A stretch of 48,398 nucleotides of DNA from an uncultured Myxococcales bacterium (GCA_937893795.1 CALCTH010000592.1:1-48398), one strand, 5' to 3'; counted from the first letter of the stretch, positions 9,815 through 30,267 are shown. Numbers and translations are program-made. Notes: a model not told the origin generated them from the letters alone.

Positions 9815-13852
<4,038 letters not shown>

Positions 13853-13856
13853 GCCC

Positions 13857-14282
13857 ATGGCCAGCCAGCTCACGCTCGAGGTCGCGACGCCGACGGGGCT
13901 CGCGCTCCGTACGGAGGCCGACTCCGTACAGGCGCCGAGCGTGCAGGGCGAGTTCGGCGTGTTGCCGGATCACCTTCCGCTCCTCGCAGCGCTCCGCACG
14001 GGCATCCTCACCTACCGGGCGTCGGGGAAGACGCACGTGGCGGCCATCGGGCCCGGCTTCGTCGAGGCGGAGCCCGACAAGGTGCTGCTCCTGACCGACC
14101 TCTTCGCCCTGCCGGCGGACGTCGACGTGGACGCCGTGCGCGGCGAGCTCGCGGAGGCCAAGCAGGCCCTCGCGGGCTTCGGCGAGCGCCACGAGGGGCA
14201 GGCCTACGAGGAGCTCCAGCGCAACGTCGACTGGGCCCAGGCCCGCCTCGACGCGGTGGCCGAGGCCGACCGCGTGAGCTGA
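13857..14282 (+). CDS. atpC: F0F1 ATP synthase subunit epsilon
   Basis: LTLEVATPTGLALRTEADSVQAPSVQGEFGVLPDHLPLLAALRTGILTYR. Confidence 0.92.
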   Translation: MASQLTLEVATPTGLALRTEADSVQAPSVQGEFGVLPDHLPLLAALRTGILTYRASGKTHVAAIGPGFVEAEPDKVLLLTDLFALPADVDVDAVRGELAEAKQALAGFGERHEGQAYEELQRNVDWAQARLDAVAEADRVS

Positions 14283-14339: not shown

Positions 14340-14767
14340 TTCGGGGGGTCGCCTTTGGGGGAGGCGCCCTACGTGCTTCGCCGCGGGAGCCGCGGCGCAG
14401 GCCGCGTCGGGTCGTGGACCATCAGCGACACCTCAGGGGCCCGAGCACCCCGTTCGGGGACGAATCTGCGTGTCATGAGCGTTGCCCGTTGACGTCTGCG
14501 GCGCGTCAGCGGTACTTGGTTCGCCCGGCGAACAAACGATGACGCCTTGGCTTGACCCTTCTACCGAACGAAACTGTTGCGGTATTCCCTGGATGGTCCC
14601 CTTATGGGGGGTCCATGAAGGGAACCCATCCTCGATCTGTGTCGAAGGCGATACGTCGAATGAGGGCCGGGGCCCGGGCGAGAGCTGGGAGAACGCCACG
14701 CGTTAGTGGCTGAAAGTGGTGCTCGGCGCGCGGGGTGGCGTGCGGGGCGGTGTGTGGAGGAGAGGGT

Positions 14768-17700
14768 ATGAACGGTAAACGGGCTCTTGGGCTCGCCACA
14801 TTGGCGGTCCTGCTTTGGACGACGGCCCTCGGTGGCTGGGCGGCCGCGCAGGACTCCGACGTGCGCAATGCGACGACGCCGGGAGCGTCGACGCAGACGC
14901 CGACGCCGGAGGACGACACCACCATCGAACCGGGGGAACCCCCTCCGGCGCCGGGTCCCTACGGAGACACGCCGCCCGACGAGCTTCCGCCCATCGAGGA
15001 GGATGCCGGCGAGGACGACGACGCCGAGGCGGGCACGGGGGACACGACACCGCCGCCGGCCGATGGCGCCGCGCCCGGAGCGACCGGCGACACGCCCCCG
15101 GACGGCACGGAGCCGGGACCTGCGGCCCCGGTCCCGAGAGACGTCCCGCCCCCGCCGGGCTCTGCCCCCGGCGTCGTGGCCGTGCCGACGCCTCCGGGCG
15201 GGCAGCGCACCACGCCGAACGACGTTCAGGTCCACCGGGACTCGCGCGGCTGGACCCTTCGCGTCGACGGCGAGGACCTCCTCGTGCGCGGCATGAACTG
15301 GGACTACTTCCCGATCGGCACGAACTACGACTACAGCCTCTGGTCCCAGACCGACGAGTTCATCCAGGAGGCCCTCGACTACGAGATGTCGCTGATGCAG
15401 GCGATGGGCGTGAACGCGATCCGCGTCTACGTCGGCATTCCGGCGAAGTGGATCACGTACATCTACGAGAACTACGGCATCTTCACGGTCCTCAACCACC
15501 CCATGGGCCGCTACGGCCACAACATCGACGGCGCGTACATCGCGCCCACGAACTACGCCGACGCGCGCACGCGCGAGGTGCTCCTCGCGGAGTGGCGAGA
15601 GATCGTCGCGGGCTACAAGGACGTGCCCGGCCTCCTGATGTGGCTTCTCGGCAACGAGAACAACTACGGCCTCTACTGGAGCTCCAACGAGATCGAGGAC
15701 CTTCCCGAGGCGACGCAGGGCGATGCGCGCGCCGTCTTCCTCTACTCGCTGATGGGCGAGGCCGTGGACGCGGCGCACGAGATCGACACCGGCCACCCCG
15801 TCGCGCTCGCCAACGGTGACCTCGGCTTCATCGAGCTCATCAAGGAGCACTGCCCGAACCTCGACATCATGGGCTCCAACGTCTACCGCGGGCGGAGCTC
15901 ACGAGACCTCTTCCAGCGCGTCGCCGACGAGCTCGAGCTGCCCTTCTTCTACACGGAGTTCGGCTCGGACGCCTACAACTCTCGCGAGGGTCGCGAGGAC
16001 GACCTGGCTCAGGCCGACATCAACCTCGCCCTCTGGCAGGAGGTCTACGAGCACACCGCGGGTCACGGCCGCGCGGACAACGCCATCGGCGGCCTCCACT
16101 TCCAGTGGTCGGACGGCTGGTGGAAGTACCGGCAGACCGAGAACCTCGACGTTCACGACGAGACCGCCTCCTGGGCAAACGACGCCTACCCCTTCGACTT
16201 CGTCGAGGGCGAGAACAACATGAACGAGGAGTGGTTTGGCATCTGCGCGAAGGGCCAAACCAACAACCAGGGCTTCTTCCGGCTCTATTGTCGTACGTCG
16301 TACTACGCGATCCGCGACGGCTGGGCCCTCGACCCCTACTCGCCCAATACGGACATGAGCCGTATCCGAACGCACTTCGGCAACATCCGGCCGAGGTCGC
16401 TCGAAGCGAACTACGCGGCCCAGAGCGCGGCCCGCGAGATCGAGTCCATGCGCATGGTCCGGACGGCCTTCCTCCGGATGGACCTCGAGACCTACGTCAC
16501 CGGCGGACGCAACCTCAACGTGCCCGAGCGCGCGCAAACGCGCTTCGACGACCTCGAGAGCTTCTACTTCGGCTTCGAGCTACAGCCGGCGCCGCGCTTC
16601 CGCGCGAACCTGTCCGTCAACATCCTCGGCAACTCGCCGCTGAACCCCATCGACGAGCTCTTCTTCGAGGCGCGCGGTCAGGCCCGCGATGTGGTGGACG
16701 CCGACGGCGAGACCTTCGCCGCCTCCGGTGCCGAGCGCGTGAAGCTCTACCAGGCGTCGTTCACGTGGGACGAGAGCTGGTTCCAGCTCGAGGGCTACTA
16801 CCGAACGGGCCACTACCACTGGGGCTACGAAGGCGACTTCTTCAACATCTATCCGGAGGCCTACTATCAGCAGGCCGGCGACGCCTTCAACGCGGACGTG
16901 CCCATCGGCCTCGTCTTCAGCGGTAAGCGGGCGCTCTCGGGCCTCAAGATCGCGTACGGCCCGGAAATCTACTGGGGCGCCAACCCGACGGTCATCGCGA
17001 AGTGGTACCGGGAGTCCGGTCCCTGGCAGTACTCCTTCATGCATCAGGAGGACATCGCGCAGCGTGCCAACGCGCCGACCTCCTCGGCCCTGCCCATTCC
17101 GCAGGATCGCCGCTCGACCATCTACATGTCGCGCCGCTTCGGTCCCATGACCCTCGAGCTCGGCGGCATCATGGCCGGCTCGCGTCGTGTCGGCCGGGAT
17201 TTCCGCTACGTCGTCGACGTCGACGAGGAGGCGGGACTCGGCAGCTACCTCGGGACGGGCCAGGCGCTCGTCGAGGACGAGGTCGGCTACGAGGACACCT
17301 TCGGCGCCAAGGCCAAGATCCGGCTCGAGCTGGCTCCCTTCTACTGGTACGTGCAGGGCGGCTACCGCGGCCTCGTCGCGGACGCGGGTTGGGACCCGAC
17401 GCTCACCTTCACCGGCTGGACGCTCAAGGAGAGCGGCCAGGGCAACCACTGGGCCGTGTCGACGGGCGCCGCGTACAATCTCGGGGACTTCCAGGTCGCG
17501 CCGAACGTGCTGATCCAGCGGCCGCTCATCGGGCCGCTCCCGCAGATCAACGACTTCTTCGACAACGAGACCGGGACCTTCTTCCCCGGGACCATCGCCC
17601 GAAACCAGCTCGCCGATCCCTTCTGGGTCCGGAGCAACCGCGAGACCTACGGCTTCGAGCTGCTCATCACCTACGACCCGACGCCCGCCACCTTCATGTG

Positions 17701-18268
17701 GGCGTGGGACAACGTGGCGCGTGAGGACGCGAAGTTTGCCTTCGCCCTCGACGTCACGTACCGGATCCACCCGACGATTCAGGACGCGGGCATCGGCATC
17801 TCGGCCGAGGGCTTCGTCTTCGGGTTCCCGACGTCGGCACCGGCGCAGGACCTCTGGGACGTCTCGTTCCAGACCATCAACAACTTCGGCAACGGCTGGC
17901 GCCTCGTGAACCGCATCTACGCGGGCAACGGGCAGGCCAACGGTGACGATGACCGGGAGATCATGCGTTACGGCACCCAGGGGCGCCTGACCCACGATCG
18001 CTTCGCCGCCCAGTACTTCGTCAAGATCGACGATTGGGGACCCTACGACTACTATCGGGACTTCAACTTCACCCTGCCGCTGCAGACGATGCTCGACCTG
18101 TCGTACTCGCTCGCGCCGCAGCAGTTCTTCGCGCCGTCCCAGACGCGCTTCGGCATTCGCACCACGTTCCGAACCCTGGACGAATTCTCGGAGCGTTTCC
18201 TTCCCAACATCAACGACGCCCTCGGCACCGAGTGGGAGATTCGGACCTATGTACAGATCACGATTTGA
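14768..18268 (+). CDS. Secreted TIM-barrel glycosidase fused to a C-terminal outer-membrane beta-barrel-like domain
   Basis: From ATG at 14768 behind GGAGGAGAGGGT; signal MNGKRALGLATLAVLLWTTALGGWAAAQ; Pro/Thr/Asp-rich linker; GH motifs GWTLRVDGEDLLVRGMNWDYF, LLMWLLGNENN, LPFFYTEFGSD; C-terminal ~600 aa with repeated beta-strand/aromatic pattern. Confidence 0.8.
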   Translation: MNGKRALGLATLAVLLWTTALGGWAAAQDSDVRNATTPGASTQTPTPEDDTTIEPGEPPPAPGPYGDTPPDELPPIEEDAGEDDDAEAGTGDTTPPPADGAAPGATGDTPPDGTEPGPAAPVPRDVPPPPGSAPGVVAVPTPPGGQRTTPNDVQVHRDSRGWTLRVDGEDLLVRGMNWDYFPIGTNYDYSLWSQTDEFIQEALDYEMSLMQAMGVNAIRVYVGIPAKWITYIYENYGIFTVLNHPMGRYGHNIDGAYIAPTNYADARTREVLLAEWREIVAGYKDVPGLLMWLLGNENNYGLYWSSNEIEDLPEATQGDARAVFLYSLMGEAVDAAHEIDTGHPVALANGDLGFIELIKEHCPNLDIMGSNVYRGRSSRDLFQRVADELELPFFYTEFGSDAYNSREGREDDLAQADINLALWQEVYEHTAGHGRADNAIGGLHFQWSDGWWKYRQTENLDVHDETASWANDAYPFDFVEGENNMNEEWFGICAKGQTNNQGFFRLYCRTSYYAIRDGWALDPYSPNTDMSRIRTHFGNIRPRSLEANYAAQSAAREIESMRMVRTAFLRMDLETYVTGGRNLNVPERAQTRFDDLESFYFGFELQPAPRFRANLSVNILGNSPLNPIDELFFEARGQARDVVDADGETFAASGAERVKLYQASFTWDESWFQLEGYYRTGHYHWGYEGDFFNIYPEAYYQQAGDAFNADVPIGLVFSGKRALSGLKIAYGPEIYWGANPTVIAKWYRESGPWQYSFMHQEDIAQRANAPTSSALPIPQDRRSTIYMSRRFGPMTLELGGIMAGSRRVGRDFRYVVDVDEEAGLGSYLGTGQALVEDEVGYEDTFGAKAKIRLELAPFYWYVQGGYRGLVADAGWDPTLTFTGWTLKESGQGNHWAVSTGAAYNLGDFQVAPNVLIQRPLIGPLPQINDFFDNETGTFFPGTIARNQLADPFWVRSNRETYGFELLITYDPTPATFMWAWDNVAREDAKFAFALDVTYRIHPTIQDAGIGISAEGFVFGFPTSAPAQDLWDVSFQTINNFGNGWRLVNRIYAGNGQANGDDDREIMRYGTQGRLTHDRFAAQYFVKIDDWGPYDYYRDFNFTLPLQTMLDLSYSLAPQQFFAPSQTRFGIRTTFRTLDEFSERFLPNINDALGTEWEIRTYVQITI

Positions 18269-18965
18269 AGCCCTGGCGCTCGTGGTGGCGCTGTGCACGG
18301 CTCTCGGTGGGTGCTTTCAGGACCCGGGAGATTTCGTCTTCGGCATCCAGACGACGGGACTGGAGTACGAGTTCTTCGACGAGAACGAGGGCGTCTTCCC
18401 GTCGGACATCACGCTGATCAACCCGAACAATCCGTTTAGGAACAGCCCGCCGGGAGCGGTCACGAAGTTCAGCATCCTCGCCAACGGCGGGGCCGTGGCG
18501 AGCTACTACACCTTCGCGACGTTGCTCGCGACGGAGACCACGGGCGAGCACCAGTTCTTCACGGCCCAGTCGGCCCAGCGTGTCGTCGAGTCGGGCTCCC
18601 TCGACCTGGCGACGGAGAACGAGCTCCGGGAGATCGCGATTCGCGGCTACCAGGCCATGCTCCTCAACTTCCCCGATACACGCACCTTCGCGGCCAACGG
18701 CATCGACTCCTTCGAGCTGGCCACGCTCGCCGTCCTCGGCATCGTGGACTTGGGCGGCCGCATCCCTGGTGACTGGGTGCTCGTGAGCGCACCCTCGAAC
18801 CTGCCCGTCGGCTTCGATCTCGACGGTGATGGGGAGGACGACCTCACCGCGCCGCCCGGCGTGGTGGCCGTGCGTCAGGCCGGGAGCGACCTTCCGCCAC
18901 CGGACCCCGTCGACCCTCCGGAGGAGGTGCCGACCCCGGGCTTCGACGACGAGGAGAACCCGTGA
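18249..18965 (+). CDS. Hypothetical lipoprotein
   Basis: MYRSRFEALALVVALCTALGGC lipobox; start overlaps the end of the upstream gene. Confidence 0.75.
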   Translation: MYRSRFEALALVVALCTALGGCFQDPGDFVFGIQTTGLEYEFFDENEGVFPSDITLINPNNPFRNSPPGAVTKFSILANGGAVASYYTFATLLATETTGEHQFFTAQSAQRVVESGSLDLATENELREIAIRGYQAMLLNFPDTRTFAANGIDSFELATLAVLGIVDLGGRIPGDWVLVSAPSNLPVGFDLDGDGEDDLTAPPGVVAVRQAGSDLPPPDPVDPPEEVPTPGFDDEENP

Positions 18966-19699
18966 TGCCGAACTATCGCGTGAGCCTGGTCCCCGCGCTG
19001 GCCCTGGCGCTGCTCTTGGGACCCACATGCCGCGAGGACCTTCCCACGCCGGACTACTCGGACCAGATCGGCATCGAGGAACGCATCGACGCAGGTACGC
19101 CCGAGGGCTTCCTCGCCGGCACGGATCCCCTTCAGGAGGGCGAGCAACGCCTCAACATCGGACTCGCCTATGAGGGCCGCTTCACTCGTGAGATCAGCGT
19201 CGGCACGGGGATTCGAAACGTCTTCGCCTTCGACCTCAACGGTGACGGCACGGGCGACTTCACCATCACGGGCGGCAACTCCTTCGACCGCGTCGAGGGA
19301 GTCGTCTCGACCGAGATCGTTCACGCGGGCTTCGGCTTCTGGGGGCTCGGGGTGTTTTACCGAGCGCAGGTCGACTCTTCGGGCACGCGGGGCGGTAGCG
19401 TCGACCTCTCGGGCTGGCGCGTCATGCACATGGCTTTGAAGTCCTCGGACGAGGCCTTCGAGGTCATCCGGATCGGGATGGAGTCCGGGCAATTCGAGAA
19501 CAACTTTGCCGCCCGGGTCGAAGCTACGGACTACGGCTACGTCAACGACGGGGAGTGGCATGTGGTCGACATCCCGCTCGCCGATTTCGAGGCGCAGGGG
19601 GTGATCCTTCAGGACTGCTCGGCGCCCCTCATTTTCTCCGGAGACTCCGGCCGACCGGGAGAGGTCTTGCTGATCGACGAGGTCTATTTCACCGACTGA
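18965..19699 (+). CDS. Putative lipoprotein with carbohydrate-binding-like beta-sandwich
   Basis: MPNYRVSLVPALALALLLGPTC signal; WRVMHMALKSSDEAFEVIRIGMESGQ...WHVVDIPLADFEAQGV...VLLIDEVYFTD resembles galactose-binding/CBM folds; GTG at 18962 is an alternative start. Confidence 0.65.
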   Translation: MPNYRVSLVPALALALLLGPTCREDLPTPDYSDQIGIEERIDAGTPEGFLAGTDPLQEGEQRLNIGLAYEGRFTREISVGTGIRNVFAFDLNGDGTGDFTITGGNSFDRVEGVVSTEIVHAGFGFWGLGVFYRAQVDSSGTRGGSVDLSGWRVMHMALKSSDEAFEVIRIGMESGQFENNFAARVEATDYGYVNDGEWHVVDIPLADFEAQGVILQDCSAPLIFSGDSGRPGEVLLIDEVYFTD

Positions 19700-19721: not shown

Positions 19722-19800
19722 TACGACACCGTAGAGATACGGACCGCAGACGAACCCACGAACCTTTACGCCCATGGACTCGGGCGGCTTGGAGATGATC

Positions 19801-21309
19801 ATGAATGCGAATCACTGGATGAAGGTCCTGGCGATGCTGGCGCTGACGGGCGCCGTCGCCTGCGGCGACGACAGCGACGGAACGACGACGCCCCCCGAGG
19901 ACATGGGCGACATGGGCGGTGACATGGTCACCACCGACATGCCGACGCCCATGGGCGGCTGCACGGACGAGGACGCCTCCAACTTCAACCCGGACGCGAC
20001 CTTCGACGACGGCACCTGCGTCTTCACCGAGACGCTCCGCGTGGACATGGCGGGCATCGAGCTCGGCGAGGACGGCGTCTGCTTCCTGGTCGGCGACTCC
20101 ACGACCGACTGCACCGACGCCACGCAGGAGGGCGATACCAGCATCTGGGCCGCCGACGTCGAGGCCACCGGTGACGCCATCCGCGGCCGCTTCGCGCTCG
20201 GCGGGGCCACGCCCACGCCCGAGACCGTCCCCGCCGCCTGCGCCGTCGAGGGCAGCAGCCCCGGCATCCGCGAGTTCGCCGCCGACGAGATGGACCCGCG
20301 CACCCCGGTCTCCTTCAACGCCTGCGGCGCACTTCCCTTCTTCGTCGACGGGATCTACTCGGCGAGCGGCTTCATCGGTGACAGCGGCAACATCACCGTC
20401 GACGTCGATGACGGCGGCGACATCTGCCCGACCCGCGTCGACGGCGCCGACGGCGCCTGCCGTCGCTGGAGCTACACGCCCGGCGAGAACAACTTCGCCG
20501 GCGTCTTCTGGCAGTTCCCCGACGGGAACTTCGGCACGATGCCCGGCTACCCGATTCCGCAGGGAACCCGCCGCATCTCCTTCGCCGCGTGGGGTGCCGC
20601 GGGCGGCGAGTCCATCGAGTTCGGCTTCGGCGTCGGCGGCGACGTCGGTGACCCGCTCGAGGCGCGCAACACCATCACGCTCACGACGACGCCCACCCTC
20701 TACAGCATCACGCTGCCGAGCACGCCCTTCGAGGACATCGTCACGCCCTTCCTCTGGGTCGCCGCCGGCGACCAGGGTCCGGTCACCTTCTTCACGGACA
20801 ACATCGTGCTCCAGGCCGCCGACCCCGGCGCGGGCTGCACGAACCCCAACGCCGCGAACTTCAACGCGGCCGCGACGAGCGACGACGGGAGCTGCGAGTT
20901 CACCTTCGAGCTCAACGTCGACATGAGCAGCTACTCCACCAACGCCAACGGCGGCGGAACCTGCGGCAGCACGGACACCTTCACCGAGGTGTTCATCACC
21001 GGAAACTTCTGCGGCTTCTGCGTGGATCCGGGCCTTCGCCTCTTCGACGAGGACGGGGACGGCATCTACTCGCAGACCTTCACCTTCGCCGAGTCGATCT
21101 TCGACATCAACGGCGGGACCGAGCTCGAGTTCCTCTACATGGTCGACGGCTTCGCCAACCAGGAGGCGCTGCTCGACGACGTCATGTCCGGAGACGACGC
21201 CTGCGTCTCGAACACGGACGGCGCGGCCTTCGCCAACCGGGGGCTCCTCCCCACGGCGAACCCGACGGTCTTGAACCACACCTACGGGCGCTGCTCCGCC
21301 TGCCCCTGA
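19801..21309 (+). CDS. Lipoprotein with two DDGxC calcium-binding-like motifs and a putative carbohydrate-binding domain
   Basis: From ATG at 19801 with GGAG upstream; MNANHWMKVLAMLALTGAVAC; GCTDEDASNFNPDATFDDGTC and GCTNPNAANFNAAATSDDGSC; central domain similar to the C-terminus of CDS 23522-25345. Confidence 0.78.
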   Translation: MNANHWMKVLAMLALTGAVACGDDSDGTTTPPEDMGDMGGDMVTTDMPTPMGGCTDEDASNFNPDATFDDGTCVFTETLRVDMAGIELGEDGVCFLVGDSTTDCTDATQEGDTSIWAADVEATGDAIRGRFALGGATPTPETVPAACAVEGSSPGIREFAADEMDPRTPVSFNACGALPFFVDGIYSASGFIGDSGNITVDVDDGGDICPTRVDGADGACRRWSYTPGENNFAGVFWQFPDGNFGTMPGYPIPQGTRRISFAAWGAAGGESIEFGFGVGGDVGDPLEARNTITLTTTPTLYSITLPSTPFEDIVTPFLWVAAGDQGPVTFFTDNIVLQAADPGAGCTNPNAANFNAAATSDDGSCEFTFELNVDMSSYSTNANGGGTCGSTDTFTEVFITGNFCGFCVDPGLRLFDEDGDGIYSQTFTFAESIFDINGGTELEFLYMVDGFANQEALLDDVMSGDDACVSNTDGAAFANRGLLPTANPTVLNHTYGRCSACP

Positions 21310-21417: not shown

Positions 21418-22680
21418 ATGACCACCGTCCCCCCGCGCCCCCTGCCCCGTCCGCCGGCGCTCGACCGAGTGCACGACTCGGCGTCGATCCGGGTGCAGCA
21501 TCGGCGCTTGCTCCTCGGACTGCTCTGGAGCCAAGCCGAGGGGTCGCGCGCGGAGCTCGCGCGCAGCACGGGGCTGAGCCGGTCGACCGTGTCTGCCATC
21601 GTCTCCGAGCTTCTGGACACGGGCCTCGTGCACGAGACGCGCGCCGGCGCCTCCACCGGCGGACGCCGGCCCATCATCCTCGCCTTTCGCGACGACGCGG
21701 CGCAGCTGATCGGCGTCGACCTCGGTGCGTCTCACGTCTCCGTCGCGCGCTCGGATCTCCGTCTTCGCATCGCGGGACAGCGCTTCGCGCGCCATGACGT
21801 GCGCGACGACCCCTGGGGCGCGCTCGCGCTCGTCGAGCGCCTCGTGCGCGAGCTCCTCGAGGAGGTCGGCGGCGTGAACTCGCTCATCGGCATCGGTGTG
21901 GCGGCCCCGAGCCCCATCGATCCGCGCCGCCCCGGGCGGCTCTCCCACTCCGTCGTGCCGCGCTGGCGCGGCATCGACCTCGTAGAGGTTCTCGGCGCAG
22001 CCTTCGGCCGCCCGGTCTTCGTCGACAACGACGCGAACGCCGGTGCGCTCGCCGAGCTCTGGTGGGGCGCCGGCCGCAGCGGCGGCGACCTGGCCTTCGT
22101 GAAGGTGGCCACCGGCGTCGGCGCCGGGCTCGTCCTGGGCGGCGAGCTCTTCCGGGGTACGGCAGGTATCGCGGGAGAGATCGGTCATCTCACGGTCGAC
22201 CCGCAGGGCCCCGAGTGTCTCTGTGGCCTGCGCGGATGCCTCGTGACCTTCGTCGGGCGCGCGGCGCTCATCGAGACCGTCCGCAAGCGTCGCGACGCCT
22301 TTCGTTCGTCCCCTCTCCACGTGGACCCGATCACCCTCGAGGGCATCGTTCGTGCGGCGCTCGATGGCGACCCGCTCGGGCAGGAGATCATCGAGGAGGC
22401 GGGCCGCATCCTGGGCGTCGGTGTGGCGAGCTTGCTCAACGTGCTCAATCCTGGACGCGTGGTGCTTTCGGGAGAGCTAGTCGAAGCGGGAGAGCTACTT
22501 CTCTCGCCGCTCCGGCAAACGGTACGGAGCCGCGCCCTCGCCGAGTCCATCGCGCACGTCGACATCGACCGAAGCACGTTGGGACCCAAGGGTGTCGTCA
22601 TGGGAGCCGCCACCCTCGTCCTTCAAGCGGCGCTCGCCGAGCCCGCCCTGATTCCCCAGATGCGCAGAGCGCAGGAGTGA
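21418..22680 (+). CDS. ROK-family transcriptional regulator (NagC/Mlc/XylR-like)
   Basis: Winged HTH SRAELARSTGLSRSTVSAIVSELLDTGLV; ROK domain with GVDLGASHVSVA, FVDNDANAGALAELWWGAGR, GEIGHLTVDPQGPECLCGLRGC. Confidence 0.92.
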   Translation: MTTVPPRPLPRPPALDRVHDSASIRVQHRRLLLGLLWSQAEGSRAELARSTGLSRSTVSAIVSELLDTGLVHETRAGASTGGRRPIILAFRDDAAQLIGVDLGASHVSVARSDLRLRIAGQRFARHDVRDDPWGALALVERLVRELLEEVGGVNSLIGIGVAAPSPIDPRRPGRLSHSVVPRWRGIDLVEVLGAAFGRPVFVDNDANAGALAELWWGAGRSGGDLAFVKVATGVGAGLVLGGELFRGTAGIAGEIGHLTVDPQGPECLCGLRGCLVTFVGRAALIETVRKRRDAFRSSPLHVDPITLEGIVRAALDGDPLGQEIIEEAGRILGVGVASLLNVLNPGRVVLSGELVEAGELLLSPLRQTVRSRALAESIAHVDIDRSTLGPKGVVMGAATLVLQAALAEPALIPQMRRAQE

Positions 22681-22682
22681 CC

Positions 22683-23522
22683 ATGCGAGAGTCGATTCGT
22701 TCCGTGCTCTTCCTCGGCCTGGCGATCGTCGCCGGCTGCGGAGAGAGCTTTACCGAAGAAGTCGTCGCGCCCTCGGGCGGTTTCACGCTGACCTTCGAAG
22801 ACCAGTTCGACGGCGCGGCGGGCTCCCCGCCGGACCTGACGAAGTGGACCTTCGACGTCGGCACCGGCGTCAACGGCTGGGGCAACGACGAGCTTCAGTT
22901 CTACACCGGCCGCCCGGACAACGTCTCCCTCGACGGGAGCGGCAACCTGGTGATCACGGCGCGCGAGGAGGAGTTCGCGGAGAGCGCCTACACCTCCGGG
23001 CGCATCAAGACGCAGGGCCTCTTCGAGCAGCGCTACGGCCGCTTCGAGGCGCGCATGCAGCTCCCGGGTCCTGGCGCCGGCCTCTGGCCGGCCTTCTGGA
23101 TGCTCGGCAACGACTTCGAGGCGGAAGGCAGCAACGTGCCGTGGCCCCTGGTCGGTGAGATCGACATCATGGAGAACATCGGCTCCGTCGAGACCGTCTA
23201 CGGCACCGTGCACGGTCCGGGCTACAGCGGCGCAGACTCCGTCGGCCGCCGGTTGACCACGCCCGGCGAGGACTACGCTGCCGAGTTCCACGTCTACCGC
23301 GTCGACTGGGACCCCTCGAGCATTCGCTGGTACGTGGACGGCGAGCAGTTCTACGTTCTGCAGGTCGGCGAGACGCCGGGTGAGTGGGTCTTCGACCGTC
23401 CCTTCTTCATGATCCTGAACCTGGCCGTCGGCGGGAACTTCCCCGGACCGCCCAACACCGCCACGCCCTTCCCGTCGGAGCTCGTCGTGGACTGGGTGCG
23501 CGTCTACGAGCGCACCCCCTGA
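22683..23522 (+). CDS. GH16-family endo-beta-1,3-glucanase (laminarinase-like) lipoprotein
   Basis: MRESIRSVLFLGLAIVAGC lipobox; WTFDVGTGVNGWGNDELQFYT; catalytic GEIDIMENIG; LNLAVGGNFPG; VVDWVRVYE. Confidence 0.93.
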   Translation: MRESIRSVLFLGLAIVAGCGESFTEEVVAPSGGFTLTFEDQFDGAAGSPPDLTKWTFDVGTGVNGWGNDELQFYTGRPDNVSLDGSGNLVITAREEEFAESAYTSGRIKTQGLFEQRYGRFEARMQLPGPGAGLWPAFWMLGNDFEAEGSNVPWPLVGEIDIMENIGSVETVYGTVHGPGYSGADSVGRRLTTPGEDYAAEFHVYRVDWDPSSIRWYVDGEQFYVLQVGETPGEWVFDRPFFMILNLAVGGNFPGPPNTATPFPSELVVDWVRVYERTP

Positions 23523-25345
23523 TGACGCTCGGCCCGCTCACGCCACGCGCCCTTCGCACGTGTGTGGCGTGCGCGGCCCTCCCCGTCGCGCTCGCTGGTT
23601 GCGGCACCTCGCGCGTGAGCGCGCCCATGGCGGCGCCGGTGCTCACGCCACGCCATGTGGAGGTCGTGCGGGACGGGGAAGGCTGGACCCTTCTCCGCGA
23701 GGGCCGGCCCTACCGAGTGCGCGGCGTCGGCTTCACCGGACGGCTGGACGGCGTTCGTTCCATCGGCGCCAACTCCGTGCGTACCTGGGGCACCGGGCCC
23801 GACGCGCGTGCCTTCCTCGACGAGGCCGAAGCACTCGGGCTCTCGGTGACGCAGGGCCTCTGGCTCGGCCACGTCGGCCACGGCTTCGACTGGCACGACG
23901 CCGAGGCGCTCGCGGAGCAGCGCGCGCGCGTGCGCCGGGACGTGCTCGCGCTCCGGGACCATCCGGCGCTCCTCTTCTGGGGGCTCGGGAACGAGATGGA
24001 GATCGACAACGACGACCCGGCCATGTGGGCCGAGGTCGGCGAGCTCGCCGCCATGGTCCGCGAGCTCGACCCCCATCACCCCATCGTCGTCGTGACGGCC
24101 GACCTCGGCGCCGCCAACGACGCGCGTCTCCGCGACTTCGTGCCCGGCGTGGTGTGGGGCATCAACAGCTATGGCGGCGCGCCGAGCGTTCCTGCCCGCC
24201 TCGCGGAGCGTGGCCACGAGGGCCCCTGGCTCCTGACCGAGGTCGGTCCCCTCGGCGATTGGGAGACAGGGCGAACGCCGTGGGGTGCGCCCGTCGAGCA
24301 GAGCAGCGCCGAGAAGCGCGCCTTCATCGTCCGGGCGCTCGCTGCCGCGGAGTCTCCCGCTGCCCTCGGCGTCTATGGCTTCGTGTGGGGACCGGGGGAC
24401 GTACCCCTCGACACGTGGTTCCCGCTCCTCGGGCCGGGAGACCGGCTCATGGAGACGGCGGCACCCTTCGCCGAGGCGTGGGGTACGGAGCTGCGCAGCT
24501 TCCCCGAGATCCGTTCCTTCGACGCGCCCTTCTCCGGCCAGAGCGTCGCGCCGGGCGCTCCGCTCCTCGCGACCCTGGAGGCCGAGGGCGCCGGCACGAT
24601 CACGTGGGCGCTTCACGTCGACCGCGCGCCCGGATCGAACCTGCCGGGGCAAGTTGCGAGTCGCGGCTCGGGCACGAGCGTTCCGCTCCTCTGCGGCGAA
24701 GGGAGCACCCGCTTCGAAGAGGCGGCGCCGCAGCGCCCCGGGCCCTACCGGCTGCTCGCCTTCGCAGAGAACGACGAAGGGGGCGTAGCCTATGCGACCG
24801 CGCGCTTCGAGGTCGCGGGCGACGAGCCACGCGGCGTCGCGCTGCCCTTCTGGCTCGACGACCACTACGCCCCGAGCGGCTTCATGGGCGACGCTCCCGC
24901 GCGGGTGACGACGGAGACGTGCCCCGTCGACGCGTGGTGTAGTGGCGCCTGCCGCCGCTTTCGCTACCGCGCCGGCGAGGCCTCGGATGGCTGGGCCGCC
25001 GTGGCCTGGATGCACCCGGAGGGGAACTGGACCGGGCGCCAGCCGGGCGTGCCGGTTCCTTCGAACACTCGGCTCGTCACCTTCCGCGCCTGGGGCGCCG
25101 AGGGCGGAGAAACGGTCTCCTTCTTCGTCGGCAACTGGGACGTCGATGGCTTCTCGCAGAAGCTCGACGACGTCGTGCTCGAGAGCTCCCCACGGAGCTA
25201 CCGCATCGAGCTTGACGCGGGGCTCCGTGACGACCTCGTCTTCGGCTTCGGTTGGGCGGCCCCGACTCCGGCGCAGGACCTCGACTTCCGCATCGCCGAC
25301 GTGACCTTCCACGCCGCCGACGCCGAGGTCATCGCCGGGGAGTGA
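23522..25345 (+). CDS. TIM-barrel glycosidase lipoprotein with C-terminal putative carbohydrate-binding domain
   Basis: Lipobox LAGC; VEVVRDGEGWTLLREGRPYRVRGVGF, LLFWGLGNEMEID, PWLLTEVGPLGDW; C-terminal ALPFWLDDHYAPSGFMGD...CRRFRYRAG... Confidence 0.8.
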   Translation: MTLGPLTPRALRTCVACAALPVALAGCGTSRVSAPMAAPVLTPRHVEVVRDGEGWTLLREGRPYRVRGVGFTGRLDGVRSIGANSVRTWGTGPDARAFLDEAEALGLSVTQGLWLGHVGHGFDWHDAEALAEQRARVRRDVLALRDHPALLFWGLGNEMEIDNDDPAMWAEVGELAAMVRELDPHHPIVVVTADLGAANDARLRDFVPGVVWGINSYGGAPSVPARLAERGHEGPWLLTEVGPLGDWETGRTPWGAPVEQSSAEKRAFIVRALAAAESPAALGVYGFVWGPGDVPLDTWFPLLGPGDRLMETAAPFAEAWGTELRSFPEIRSFDAPFSGQSVAPGAPLLATLEAEGAGTITWALHVDRAPGSNLPGQVASRGSGTSVPLLCGEGSTRFEEAAPQRPGPYRLLAFAENDEGGVAYATARFEVAGDEPRGVALPFWLDDHYAPSGFMGDAPARVTTETCPVDAWCSGACRRFRYRAGEASDGWAAVAWMHPEGNWTGRQPGVPVPSNTRLVTFRAWGAEGGETVSFFVGNWDVDGFSQKLDDVVLESSPRSYRIELDAGLRDDLVFGFGWAAPTPAQDLDFRIADVTFHAADAEVIAGE

Positions 25346-28300
25346 GTCGGACCTCGAGAACGCGCACGACGCCGTCCCGAGCGAAGACGTGGCGGCTGAG
25401 CTCGGCGCCGAGGTTCAGGCCGGGCACCTCCTCCGTGCTGCCGTCCTCGCGCCGGGCCAGGATGCGCGGCTCCCCGGCATCGGTGGTGATGATGACCGGC
25501 GTCTGCGCGAAGGTGTAGGCCATGCCACCCGCCGGGACCTCGATATCGGCGGCCTCTCCCGCCACGTCGCAGTAGCGCATCACGCCGGCCTCGCCGAGGA
25601 GCTCCGCGCCGCGCATGAGCGCGGGATCGAAGGTGAGCGAGCCGGCATCGATGCGTACGCCGACCTCACCGAGGCGCGTGAGGAGCTCCTCCTTCACCTG
25701 CCCCGTCATGCCCGGCTGCTTCGCGCCGCCGGTCTCTGGCGTGTGCGAGTAGGGGTCGGTGGGGAAGGCGCCATAGGTGGCCGGGGACTTCCGGTAGCCG
25801 AGCCCAGCCTGGATCTCGAAGTAGGCTTCGGCGAGCGCATCGAGGGTCTCGGCGGGCGCGCCCTCGTCCTTGGCGGACCAGAAGCACTCCTGCGCTGCGA
25901 GGAGCAGCTTCGAAACCATGTGCCAGTAGACGCTCCCGAGACCCTCGTAGGCGAAGAAGGTCCCCGAGCGCCCGGTGAAGGCTCGGTGATCGAAGACCTC
26001 CTCGAAGAGCCCGAGGAGCTCGTCCCGCTCCGCCGCGACGTGCTCCCGATAGCGTTCGTCCTGCGCGAGGTCGTCGAGGAGCGCCTCGAGGTCGGCCGCG
26101 TTCCGGAGGTCGCCGCCGAAGCAGGCCATGCCCTCGTAGCCCTCGACCACGATCAGGCGGTGGTCGCCGCCGAAGCGCATCTTGCTCACGAGCGGTGAGC
26201 TCGCGACGCGTGCGAGCGGGAAGCGGTTCTTCTGCAAAAAGCCGGGCAGGTCCTTGTTCGGGTAGAGCAGGTAGGTGTTCTGCGCCGGCCAGTAGAGCGC
26301 GCTCTCCCTCAGCGCGCGCAGCACCTCGAGCGCCTCGTCCGGCGTCAGCGTCCCCGCCGAGAGCATGGCGACCTGACCCTCGAGCATCGGGTCGAGGGAC
26401 TCGATGCGGGCCTCGTCACCCTCCATCACGAGCACGTCGTAGGCGTGCGCCAGCCCGTCGTCGCGGCGGCGCGCTCGGAGCGCGTGGTCGAGGTGGGCGG
26501 TGGCCACGTCGAGGAGCGCGACGAGCGAAGTCTTGGAAACGGTCGTTCGGTCGGTCGTGGGTCCTTCGTAGACCGCGTCTCGAAAACGCGTCCCCGCCTC
26601 GCCGAGGCGGTCCATGGTCGCGCGTCGCGCCCTGGGCTCGATGTCCGCCGCGAGCTGGCCCTGGGCGTCCACCAGCGCGCCCGCGACGCTCTCCGCGAGC
26701 GCGGCGACGGGCGCCGAGACCGGGAAGTCCGTGACGTCGCTGCCCTCGAGCTGCGAGCGCCAGTACGCCACGAAGCGCCGTAGGTAGGCCGCCGTCACCA
26801 CGGAGACGCCCTTGCCGGCGAGCGCATTGTTGGCGTCGTTCCACTCGGGCCGCTGCGTGTTCATCCAGATGCCCGCGCCGGGCACGAAGCTCACCAGCTT
26901 GGCGAGGAGCAGCGTGAGCAGCTTCTCGGCCATGGTGACGTGGTGCACGTCCTCGCCCGCGAGCACGAGGCGCGCGTCCGTGCCCATCTCCTTCTCGAGG
27001 GCCGTGATGGAGGCCTCCGAGTCTTCGTCGAAGTGAATCGTGTCGTAGGGATCCCGGACCGTGTCCGCGTAGCTCGCGATGCGATAGGGCACGTTCGCCG
27101 CCGTGAAGAGGGGCTCGTTCCACCAGCGCTGAAGCACTCCCGGCTGGAGCCGCTCGACGGCCTCGAGGAGGCGCTGGAGGTACACGATCTGGTGGTCGCC
27201 CCAGTAGCCGATGTTGCTCCAGGGGTTGTCTGGCTCCGGGACCTCCCACTCGATGCCCGCCCGCGTGACCCGGTAGGGGTTGTAGCCGTCGGGCGTCGTC
27301 GCGTTGAGGAACTTCGCCACGATGGCCGGACCGAAGACCGGGAAGGCGTAGGTCAGCGGCTCCCAGTTCTGGAAGATGTCCCGCCAGTTGCCCTGGTAGT
27401 CGGTGCAGGGCGTGTTGTCGGGGTTGCGGAGCTTGATGGAGAACTCGTTCCAGGGCCGGCTCGGATCCCCGTGGCGCCGGCTCCAGGTGAGCGGGAGGTA
27501 CTCGAGGGCCAGCCGCCAAAGGTCGCGGTCGCCGCTCGCCTCCGCCTGGGCGTGGAGATCCGAGGCCTCGAGCCACTCCGGCAGGGCGTCGAAGAAGGCC
27601 CGCCGGCGCTCGTGAAGGCGCCGGTTTCGCGTGCTGACGAACTCCACGAAGTCGCGGGTCTCGACGCGCGTCCCGTGCGCGAAGACCCCTCCGCGGGCGA
27701 GGTTGAAGAGCGTGTTGGCGAAGTGGTGAGTGGTCGCCAGGTCGTCGGCGCCCACGGAGATGCCGTCGCCCGCGGCGAGCGTGCGCAGCAGCCCCTCGGT
27801 GCTCGCGGCCACGTCGGCCTCGAGGGCTTCGGCGCGGGCGGCGTCGTCGTGGTCCCGGAGGAACGCGCGGAGCGTGCCGACCTCGCCGGCATTCTTCGAC
27901 ACGTCCATCGCCAGGTACCAGCGCGCCCTCCCGCCGGCCGCGAGCTCGAGGGAGGCGATGCGGAGGAAGGCGCCGCGGCGACCCCGCAGGTCGTTCTCAC
28001 CCCGCACGGCCTCGCCGCGCTTGAATGCCTCGATGCGCGCATCGCTCGTCAGGAGCGTCGTCTCGACGTCCAGCCCGGCGCCCCAGGCGACGGCGGCGCG
28101 GAGCGCCTCCGAGGGTTCGGCGCGGTCGGTGAGCGTCGAGCTCAGCGAGAAGAGCCCGATGCCCGTCGCCGGGTCCCGCTCGGTGCGCTTGTAGCCGTCG
28201 AGGAGGTTCGAATACTCGGTCTGGAGCTGACGCGTCGCCCCGTGCGGGAGCACGTTCTGCACACCGTCCAGCAGCCGGACCCGGCAGGGGCCCGCCTCCG

Positions 28301-28811
28301 CGTCCCGGGTCAGCGTGACGGTGCGAACGAAGCCGAAGCGCTCGCCCATGCGCCAGGACTGCGCGAAGGTCATGCCGAGGTCGTGGTTGCGTTCCTCGAA
28401 GCGGAGCGTGTCGCCTTCGACGCTCTTCAGCAGCGTCCGCTCGACGCGGTGCACCTGAACCCCGCGTGTCGCGAGCGGCTCCCAGAGCATGGGGCCCTCG
28501 CCGCCGTCGACGAGGAGCGCCACGAGTGGGCCCGTGCGGTCGGCGCCGCGGGTTACCTTGTCGACGGTGTCGTAAGGGAAGAGCGCGTGGTCCGCATTGC
28601 CGCGGCCCGCGCTGAGACCCCCGGTGCTCGCGATGAAGAGCCAGTGGTCCGAGGGGCTCGCGAGGGTCATGAAGAAAGGCGCCATCGCGTCCACGCCATG
28701 GATGGCGTAGTAGCGCCGGCCCTCCCGCTCCTCGAAGACGCCCTGGGTTGCTCGTTCCGGACCGAGCGGCACGTCACCGCCCAACCGAACCTGTGTTCGC
28801 TCGTCGCTCAT
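25329..28811 (-). CDS. Large cytoplasmic glycoside phosphorylase-like protein (GH94/GH149/GH161-type, likely beta-1,3-oligoglucan phosphorylase)
   Basis: ~1160 aa from ATG at 28811, no signal peptide; SIKLRNPDNTPCTDYQGNWRDIFQNWEPLTYAFPVFGPAIVAKFLNATTPDGYNPYRVTRAGIEWEVPEPDNPWSNIGYWGDHQIVYLQRLLE; role inferred from adjacent GH16/17/128 and transporter. Confidence 0.65.
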   Translation of the reverse strand: MSDERTQVRLGGDVPLGPERATQGVFEEREGRRYYAIHGVDAMAPFFMTLASPSDHWLFIASTGGLSAGRGNADHALFPYDTVDKVTRGADRTGPLVALLVDGGEGPMLWEPLATRGVQVHRVERTLLKSVEGDTLRFEERNHDLGMTFAQSWRMGERFGFVRTVTLTRDAEAGPCRVRLLDGVQNVLPHGATRQLQTEYSNLLDGYKRTERDPATGIGLFSLSSTLTDRAEPSEALRAAVAWGAGLDVETTLLTSDARIEAFKRGEAVRGENDLRGRRGAFLRIASLELAAGGRARWYLAMDVSKNAGEVGTLRAFLRDHDDAARAEALEADVAASTEGLLRTLAAGDGISVGADDLATTHHFANTLFNLARGGVFAHGTRVETRDFVEFVSTRNRRLHERRRAFFDALPEWLEASDLHAQAEASGDRDLWRLALEYLPLTWSRRHGDPSRPWNEFSIKLRNPDNTPCTDYQGNWRDIFQNWEPLTYAFPVFGPAIVAKFLNATTPDGYNPYRVTRAGIEWEVPEPDNPWSNIGYWGDHQIVYLQRLLEAVERLQPGVLQRWWNEPLFTAANVPYRIASYADTVRDPYDTIHFDEDSEASITALEKEMGTDARLVLAGEDVHHVTMAEKLLTLLLAKLVSFVPGAGIWMNTQRPEWNDANNALAGKGVSVVTAAYLRRFVAYWRSQLEGSDVTDFPVSAPVAALAESVAGALVDAQGQLAADIEPRARRATMDRLGEAGTRFRDAVYEGPTTDRTTVSKTSLVALLDVATAHLDHALRARRRDDGLAHAYDVLVMEGDEARIESLDPMLEGQVAMLSAGTLTPDEALEVLRALRESALYWPAQNTYLLYPNKDLPGFLQKNRFPLARVASSPLVSKMRFGGDHRLIVVEGYEGMACFGGDLRNAADLEALLDDLAQDERYREHVAAERDELLGLFEEVFDHRAFTGRSGTFFAYEGLGSVYWHMVSKLLLAAQECFWSAKDEGAPAETLDALAEAYFEIQAGLGYRKSPATYGAFPTDPYSHTPETGGAKQPGMTGQVKEELLTRLGEVGVRIDAGSLTFDPALMRGAELLGEAGVMRYCDVAGEAADIEVPAGGMAYTFAQTPVIITTDAGEPRILARREDGSTEEVPGLNLGAELSRHVFARDGVVRVLEVRLTPRR

Positions 28812-28825
28812 GGCTCTCTGCTCGC

Positions 28826-30267
28826 TCAGCCCGCGTCCGGGGCCGCCTCCGCGGCCGCTCCGCTCTCCTCCGCCGCACACCTCGCCTCGAGGTCCGTCTG
28901 CATGCCGCGGACGGTGTCGAGGTCCTGCTGGTAGAAGACCAGCCGGACGCCCGCAACCAGGTAGAGCATGGCCGGGAAGGCCGTCATCATGAGGCGAATC
29001 CCCCGAGCAGCGCCGCGTCGCTCCGCTCCTGATTCGCAACGTCGCCAAAGACCCCGAGCAGGCACGCCGAGAGATAGCCGCCGAGACCCCAGCGCAGCTT
29101 CATCGAGAGCGTCGACGCACTGAAGGAGAGCCCCCTTGCGCGGCGGTTGCGCTTCCACTCGGAGAAGTCCGCGGTATTCGCGATCATCGTCCAGAGCAGG
29201 GGGGCCGGCGGCGCGAACGCGATCTTGCCCAGGATGTCGAAGAGGTAGATCAGACCGAGCTGGTCGCCGCCCTGGAGGAACATCAGTCCGTAGAAGGTTG
29301 ATGTGAAGATCGAGCACCCGATGTAGACGTTTCGATTGCCGAAGCGGGAAGCGAGAGGCTTGGCAAGCGGAGTGGCAGCGATCAGCGCGATGAAGCCAAC
29401 GATGTTGAACTTCTCGTTCTCGCTCAGCGACGTGATGAAGCTGAGCATCTCCAGCTTGGCCTCTGGATCGATGAAGTGCGTGAAGCAGAGAGCACCCACA
29501 GCCGCCTGCATCGCGAAGAGCGTGAAGCTGATGATGCCGACCCCCACCAGCGCCACCCATCGACGGGTGGTTATGACCTTCTTCAGGTCCGCCTCGAGAT
29601 TGGTCTTCTGCCCCTCGGGCGGCTCGCTTCTTTCTCGGGTAGTGAGGAACGCGGCGAAGAAGAAGATCACGCTGATGACACCAAAGACGCTCATCGTCCA
29701 GCCGTATCCGAGCGCGTCGTCGCCACCGCCAAAGAACGTGACCAGTGCAAGGGCGCTGCCGGTCACCGCGAGCTGCCCCGCAAATGCGAAGACGAACGGG
29801 TATTGATTCAATGACGCTCGCTCACCCGAGCTTCCCGTCATGGCCCCGGCCAGGGACGAGCGGGACAGGTCGATGGCCAGATAAATGGTCATCAACAGCA
29901 TGTACGTCACGCCCGCATAAATGGCTTTGCCGTTCGGGCTCAAATCGGGAATGCTGAAGGTCATGACCGCCAGCACGTCGTATGGAATCGCCATCCAGAG
30001 GAGGTAAGGGCGGAACTTATCCCCGCGCGTCTTCGTGCGGTCCACGATGCCGCCCATGATCAGGGCCGTCACCACGTCCCAAAGGCGCGCTACGAGCAGA
30101 ATCAGTGCCGCAACCTCGGGGTCGATACCGTACACGTCCGCGTAGAAGACGAGGGCCCACATCCCCGCCATGTCCCACACGAAGTGAGACGCGGTGTCGC
30201 CGAGGCCGTGGCCGATCTTCTCTTTCAGAGAGAGCCGCGGCGTGGGGGAGGGAGACTCTTCGTTCAT
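28826..30267 (-). CDS. GPH (glycoside-pentoside-hexuronide:cation symporter, MelB-like) transporter; reading frame interrupted at 29000-29004
   Basis: Frame 30267->28987: KEKIGHGLGDTASHFVWDMAGMWALVFYADVYG...VARLWDVVTALIMGGIVDRTKTRGDKFRPYLLW...NTADFSEWKRNRRARGLSFSASTLSMKLRWGLGG; last helix continues in another frame as GIRLMMTAFPAMLYLVAGVRLVFYQQDLDTVRGMQTDLEARCAAEES to 28826. Confidence 0.85.

Follow-up and report, generated by a model that had tools for sequence, protein, structure and literature searches.

The window analysed here, a stretch of 48,398 nucleotides from an uncultured Myxococcales bacterium (GCA_937893795.1, CALCTH010000592.1:1-48398), contains an uninterrupted open reading frame of 1166 residues with an ATG start, which is predicted to encode a glycosidase and an outer-membrane β-barrel in a single chain (Table 1). 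A preliminary description of the frame had listed a signal peptide, a Pro/Asp/Thr-rich linker, a TIM-barrel glycosidase with GNE and TEFG motifs and a C-terminal barrel, with no stop or frame break between them. All of these elements are present, and residues ~150–1166 align end to end with 83 homologues at 45–65% identity and without frame breaks. The barrel follows the glycosidase as described and starts slightly later than the 16.4 kb first given, near residue 564 (window position 16457). The leaders of the homologues likewise resemble signal peptidase I substrates, ending in AQ or similar. Two minus-strand frames of similar length (14561–15850 and 16580–18298) were rejected as high-GC shadows of the conserved frame.

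Table 1. Features of the fusion gene and of its neighbourhood, in window coordinates.
Feature	Position	Strand	Remarks
Fusion protein, GH158-like glycosidase and predicted 26-strand outer-membrane barrel	14768–18268	+	1166 residues; 83 full-length homologues
Type I signal peptide, residues 1–28	14768–14851	+	Ends AAAQ, without a lipobox; MNGKRALGLATLAVLLWTTALGGWAAAQ
Pro/Asp/Thr-rich linker, about residues 29–150 (~120 residues)	14852–15217	+	Missing from Bacteroidota homologues
Clan GH-A TIM-barrel glycosidase domain, GH158-like, about residues 151–524	15218–16339	+	Profile, model, Foldseek
E297, predicted acid/base, GNE motif after strand 4	15656–15658	+	Invariant in 84/84; aligns with GNE of BuGH158
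E397, predicted nucleophile, TEFG motif at strand 7	15956–15958	+	Invariant in 84/84; aligns with TEWG of BuGH158
Enzyme-to-barrel segment, two short helices and linker, near-fixed length	16340–16456	+	AlphaFold2, alignment
Predicted 26-strand outer-membrane β-barrel, residues 564–1166	16457–18265	+	Two AlphaFold2 models, Foldseek, strand alternation
Small predicted lipoprotein	18249–18965	+	20-base overlap with the fusion gene; related proteins occupy this position at 11 loci
Putative carbohydrate-binding protein, weakly CIA30-like	18962–19699	+	Relatives at 10 loci
Predicted lipoprotein, possible surface glycan-binding protein	19774–21309	+	Lipobox AVAC; no Pfam/NCBIfam family match
ROK-family transcriptional regulator	21418–22680	+	Pfam ROK 8.5e-54
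GH16 laminarinase, predicted lipoprotein	22662–23522	+	PDB 3atg glucanase 2.9e-73; Pfam GH16
GH158 enzyme with C-terminal extension, predicted lipoprotein	23516–25345	+	PDB 9oro 4.7e-66, 6pal 4.3e-35
GH149 β-1,3-oligosaccharide phosphorylase	25329–29048	-	PDB 6hq6 6.3e-301; convergent; the ORF probably begins upstream of the true start
MFS_2 sugar transporter	28987–30267	-	Pfam MFS_2 1.6e-62

The genes around the fusion form a β-1,3-glucan locus, with co-located enzymes (GH16, GH158 and GH149), an importer (MFS_2) and a regulator (ROK). An F-type ATP synthase operon (alpha, gamma, beta and epsilon subunits; 9842–14282) lies directly upstream of the locus. A role in export or biosynthesis was rejected, as the neighbours are catabolic.

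A scan of species genomes gave at least 590 confirmed relatives, the best 80 of which were kept, and a search for relatives was added. The comparison set of 84 sequences consists of the window protein and 83 others from the best-scoring relatives. The 83 best-match loci belong to Bacteroidota, Myxococcota, Gemmatimonadota, Ignavibacteriota, Balneolota, Calditrichota, Eiseniibacteriota, Krumholzibacteriota and other phyla, and the tree of homologues mostly tracks phyla. The spacing from domain to domain is identical in 72 of the 84 sequences. With a barrel-only profile, matches were obtained in 30 of the 290 Myxococcota and 30 of the 300 Bacteroidota genomes sampled (~10%), none of them to a stand-alone barrel: the matching frames are fusions, except where a contig end cuts the frame or a break interrupts it. 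Two short candidates for a lone barrel were rejected, one as a contig edge (L117) and the other as a mid-gene break (L111). A chance or assembly fusion was likewise rejected in view of the 83 other fusions. The full-length homologues, the near-fixed spacing and the lack of a lone barrel in the genomes sampled thus indicate an old family with two inseparable parts, and the fusion is widespread, unnamed and obligatory, a conclusion that is well supported by computation. Two homologues (L121 and L168) carry an in-frame stop (TAG, TAA) and are likely to be decaying copies or assembly errors.

AlphaFold2, run on the alignment of the 84 sequences, predicts 26 strands in the C-terminal part both in a model of residues 145–1166 (pLDDT 86.9, pTM 0.78) and in a model of the C-terminal part alone (pLDDT 88.4, pTM 0.84). 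Turns alternate between long and short along these 26 consecutive strands, with loops of 6–40 residues on one side and mostly of 2–6 on the other, and insertions among the homologues fall almost entirely on the long-loop (predicted outer) side. The in–out hydrophobic alternation of the barrel strands is 2.46, compared with 1.39 ± 0.20 in shuffled sequences, and exceeds all 2000 shuffles; no such alternation is shown by the TIM strands. Among the listed Foldseek matches of the isolated barrel are TonB receptors, Occ porins, MOMP, ChuA, FimD and AlgE, with TM-scores near 0.35, as would be expected for a barrel that differs from these in size. A sequence search of the PDB with the barrel gave no match even at E = 1. 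The C-terminal residue of the barrel is often non-aromatic. The strands are amphipathic and even in number, the periplasmic turns are short, the outer loops are long and a signal peptide is present, as in an outer-membrane β-barrel, and the models fit an even-stranded barrel with both of its ends in the periplasm. Neither model contains the soluble β-sandwiches that the preliminary description had named as the contrary outcome for the C-terminal half, and the models support a glycosidase and an outer-membrane barrel in one chain.

The enzyme domain carries the catalytic pair of clan GH-A, with an Asn-Glu after strand 4 and a Glu at strand 7 that are invariant in 84 of 84 sequences. In Pfam and NCBIfam, only part of the glycosidase gave matches, which were GH2-like and below threshold, and nothing convincing was obtained for the C-terminal half. 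Against the PDB, a single-sequence phmmer search found GH158(Pro) (PDB 9oro, 4.5e-6) and the family profile placed BuGH158 (6pal, 3.1e-8) at the top with both catalytic motifs aligned; both matches are weak and cover part of the domain. Foldseek with the full model ranked GH158(Pro) and BuGH158 first, with ~14% identity to GH158 enzymes in the structural alignment. In BuGH158, activity was abolished when any of the corresponding residues (Asn, acid/base or nucleophile) was mutated (PMC7157763). We infer from sequence and models that the domain is nearest to the GH158 endo-β-1,3-glucanases and predict it to be a glucanase. It is named GH158-like, rather than a GH158 member, because the distance is large and the true GH158 enzyme of the window scores 4.7e-66. 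The fusion shares with BuGH158 and GH158(Pro) the TIM barrel and the aligned Asn-Glu acid/base and Glu nucleophile and differs at the C-terminus, which is a soluble Ig-like domain in BuGH158 (PMC7157763) and a predicted membrane barrel here. Assignment to GH2 is not supported: Glyco_hydro_2_C scores 16.4 bits against a cut-off of 21 and matches the TIM part only, and the AlphaFold2 model, unlike GH2, has no sandwich domains before the TIM barrel.

A loop of ~55 residues after TIM strand 8 (about residues 444–499; A1 positions 300–355), WWK...NNMNEEWFGICAKG, hardly varies and is modelled without regular structure; this loop may be a docking face or part of the substrate cleft. Relatives of the enzyme domain that have no barrel occur in other Myxococcota at ~30–35% identity (L169:7170-8666, L170:7438-8568, L171:7344-8522 and L172:2-943). 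In three of them a lipobox at the start is followed by an acidic, Pro/Thr-rich linker resembling that of the fusion, so that predicted lipid-anchored versions of the enzyme domain exist. Another contig of the genome of the window encodes a second distant relative of the enzyme domain in a 725-residue frame without a barrel (L013:895-3069).

The outer loops of the barrel are strongly conserved. Mean conservation is 0.70 in the outer loops compared with 0.54 in the periplasmic turns, and positions conserved at 95% or more number 63 and 8, respectively. Nearly fixed outer loops include RTGHYHWGYEGDFFGLYPEANYGPN, LWWGANP, GLVAxGGxDxTxTFTGWRLKDSGSGN and GPYDYHRDFNL. Outer loops are ordinarily the most variable part of outer-membrane proteins. 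Because those of the fusion are nearly fixed, they must bind something constant, be it the glucan or the enzyme domain of the same chain, or both of these.

The neighbourhoods of the homologues resemble that of the window. GH16 is present at all 44 loci with complete flanks and at 61 of the 84 overall, GH149 is found at 34 of the 84, GH1 at 19 and ROK at 18, and GH17, GH30, GH3, GH81, Opp-type ABC transporters and hybrid two-component/LuxR-type regulators are neighbours at other loci. In most Bacteroidota the gene directly downstream of the fusion encodes a Big_2-domain protein of ~470–1000 residues (L080:10079-11956; relatives at 57 loci), which is probably an unnamed surface glucan-binding protein. 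When 15 TonB-dependent receptors from the same genomes were compared, singly and as a profile, with the neighbours of the fusion, a match was found at one of the 84 loci, the search extending to about 7 kb or to a nearer contig end. By this receptor search, 83 of the 84 loci show no match to the susC half of the susC/susD pair of a canonical Bacteroidetes polysaccharide-utilization locus (PUL). All of the homologue genomes, among them 32 searched for plug domains, have TonB-dependent receptors elsewhere, so β-glucan uptake could occur through these.

The gene set of the homologue loci is the same as that of marine laminarin PULs, and its order is similar (Muricauda, PMC13188888; Formosa PUL 2, PMC6246565; PMC10108472). 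In the Muricauda loci a 'GH2 β-glycosidase' accompanies GH16, GH149, MFS, GH30, GH17 and LuxR genes (PMC13188888), and loci from North Sea blooms are written 'GH149-GH0-GH16_3' and 'GH149-GH0-GH17-GH16_3-GH30_1', with the expression of GH0 and GH16_3 in the top 10% in one genome (PMC10108472). Judged by gene order, this 'GH2 β-glycosidase' or 'GH0' gene is probably a member of the fusion family. Laminarin induces the Formosa loci (PMC6246565). The susCD genes are missing from one locus of the related variant 1 type (PMC10108472) and are present in some laminarin PULs with this same set of genes (PMC6298971, PMC10108472). The marine studies ascribe import to SusCD and read a GH17-MFS fusion as a coupling of cleavage to transport at the inner membrane; no description of a barrel in the 'GH2' or 'GH0' gene was found in them (PMC13188888, PMC6246565, PMC10108472). 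A literature search for enzyme–porin fusions and glycosidase autotransporters found no relevant precedent. The statement that no named family has this architecture thus stands for Pfam, NCBIfam, the PDB (barrel) and the literature searched.

By analogy, the closest functional model of the fusion is the SusCD utilisome of Bacteroides (White et al., 2023; PMC7618045), in which an enzyme, binding lipoproteins and an outer-membrane barrel also serve one glycan; there the enzyme and the barrel are separate proteins, whereas in the fusion they form one chain. TonB-dependent receptors, including SusC, consist of a plug and a 22-strand barrel, whereas the fusion has 26 predicted strands and matches neither the plug nor the receptor models.

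Taking these results together, we consider it probable that the fusion is the outer-membrane component of a β-1,3-glucan (laminarin) locus, in which cleavage is coupled to uptake or the enzyme is at least anchored. The locus has no other outer-membrane passage and the fused protein is the sole barrel recognized there; it is proposed as the entry route. Coupling to uptake or anchoring had been suggested in the preliminary description, and the idea is strengthened because the fully flanked homologues all lie among β-glucan enzymes, nearly always without a TonB-dependent receptor. The substrate, the activity, the conduction of the pore and the coupling are inferred. Surface lipoproteins (GH16, GH158 and binding proteins) would catch and clip the glucan, the conserved aromatic outer loops would hold the chain and the barrel would let it in. 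The fused glucanase would cut the chain at the mouth of the pore, so that the chain could not escape, and cleavage would result in one-way uptake without a SusCD pair. MFS_2 would then import the oligosaccharides, cytoplasmic GH149 would phosphorolyse them and ROK would regulate the locus. In its fullest form, which we put forward tentatively and give a somewhat less than even chance, the proposal is of a self-contained import machine: a pore with its own endoglucanase, one-way and independent of TonB energy or SusCD, which is present in Bacteroidota, Myxococcota and Gemmatimonadota and is hidden in marine laminarin loci as GH2 or GH0.

The side of the membrane on which the enzyme would reside is weighted slightly towards the periplasm, because the linker is short, strand 1 begins in the periplasm and the helix ahead of it is predicted well only when the enzyme is part of the model. 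An enzyme threaded through the wide lumen to the surface, in the manner of an autotransporter, would suit the conserved outer loops just as well. As a rough estimate, the pTM of 0.78 suggests that the relative placement of the two domains can be trusted to some extent and does not indicate the side.

In enzyme autotransporters (type V secretion), such as EstA, the enzyme is followed by a helix and then by the barrel. The fusion has the same layout, a single chain with its catalytic domain ahead of a C-terminal outer-membrane barrel, and this raises the possibility, real though minor in our judgement, that the barrel of the fusion is a surface anchor only, displaying the glycosidase while other porins or a TonB-dependent receptor encoded elsewhere take up the products, such receptors being present in the homologue genomes. 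Because the unfused relatives of the enzyme domain look like lipoproteins, the barrel may do no more than take the place of a lipid anchor. A 26-strand barrel whose aromatic outer loops are nearly fixed is, however, more than a mere anchor needs. Known autotransporters have barrels of 12 strands (type Va; 16 in type Vd), there is no match to an autotransporter family in Pfam or NCBIfam, and the helix before strand 1, unlike a lumen helix, is not placed in the barrel-only model. The fusion also belongs to nutrient loci, unlike enzyme autotransporters such as EstA.

Another linkage, such as β-1,6, is possible for the substrate because the enzyme domain is far from GH158 in sequence, and a GH2 β-1,6-glucosidase has been supposed in the Muricauda laminarin locus (PMC13188888). 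We nevertheless regard it as unlikely that the enzyme trims β-1,6 branches or acts on another glucan of the same loci, with the barrel as a pore or an anchor: the nearest structures by profile and by fold are endo-β-1,3-glucanases, and GH30_1, which is found in many of the loci, is a characterized β-1,6-glucosidase (PMC13188888, PMC6246565). That the C-terminal half consists of the soluble β-domains of an ordinary multidomain glycosidase is very improbable: C-terminal β-sandwiches are common in glycosidases, part of the full model is matched in Foldseek by several structures of β-galactosidases and glucuronidases and the last residue is often non-aromatic, but both models show the 26 strands with their alternating turns, the listed matches of the isolated region are outer-membrane proteins and the hydrophobic alternation is strong in these strands and absent from the TIM strands. 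The architecture first described is thus confirmed and larger than stated, with the probable substrate, the wide distribution and the obligatory fusion as additions.

Laminarin is among the most abundant polysaccharides eaten by marine bacteria, and its entry through the outer membrane is credited to SusCD complexes. If the reading of the fusion as an entry route is true, laminarin would have a second way in, through an enzyme–pore fusion that is conserved in β-1,3-glucan loci across several phyla, and this would account for laminarin clusters without susCD. It would correct the 'GH2 β-glycosidase' or 'GH0' annotation of a gene that is reported to be highly expressed in blooms, and would offer a single-gene system for direct tests of cleavage-coupled transport. 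An uptake route is thereby suggested for a protein that is so far on record only as an ordinary soluble enzyme.
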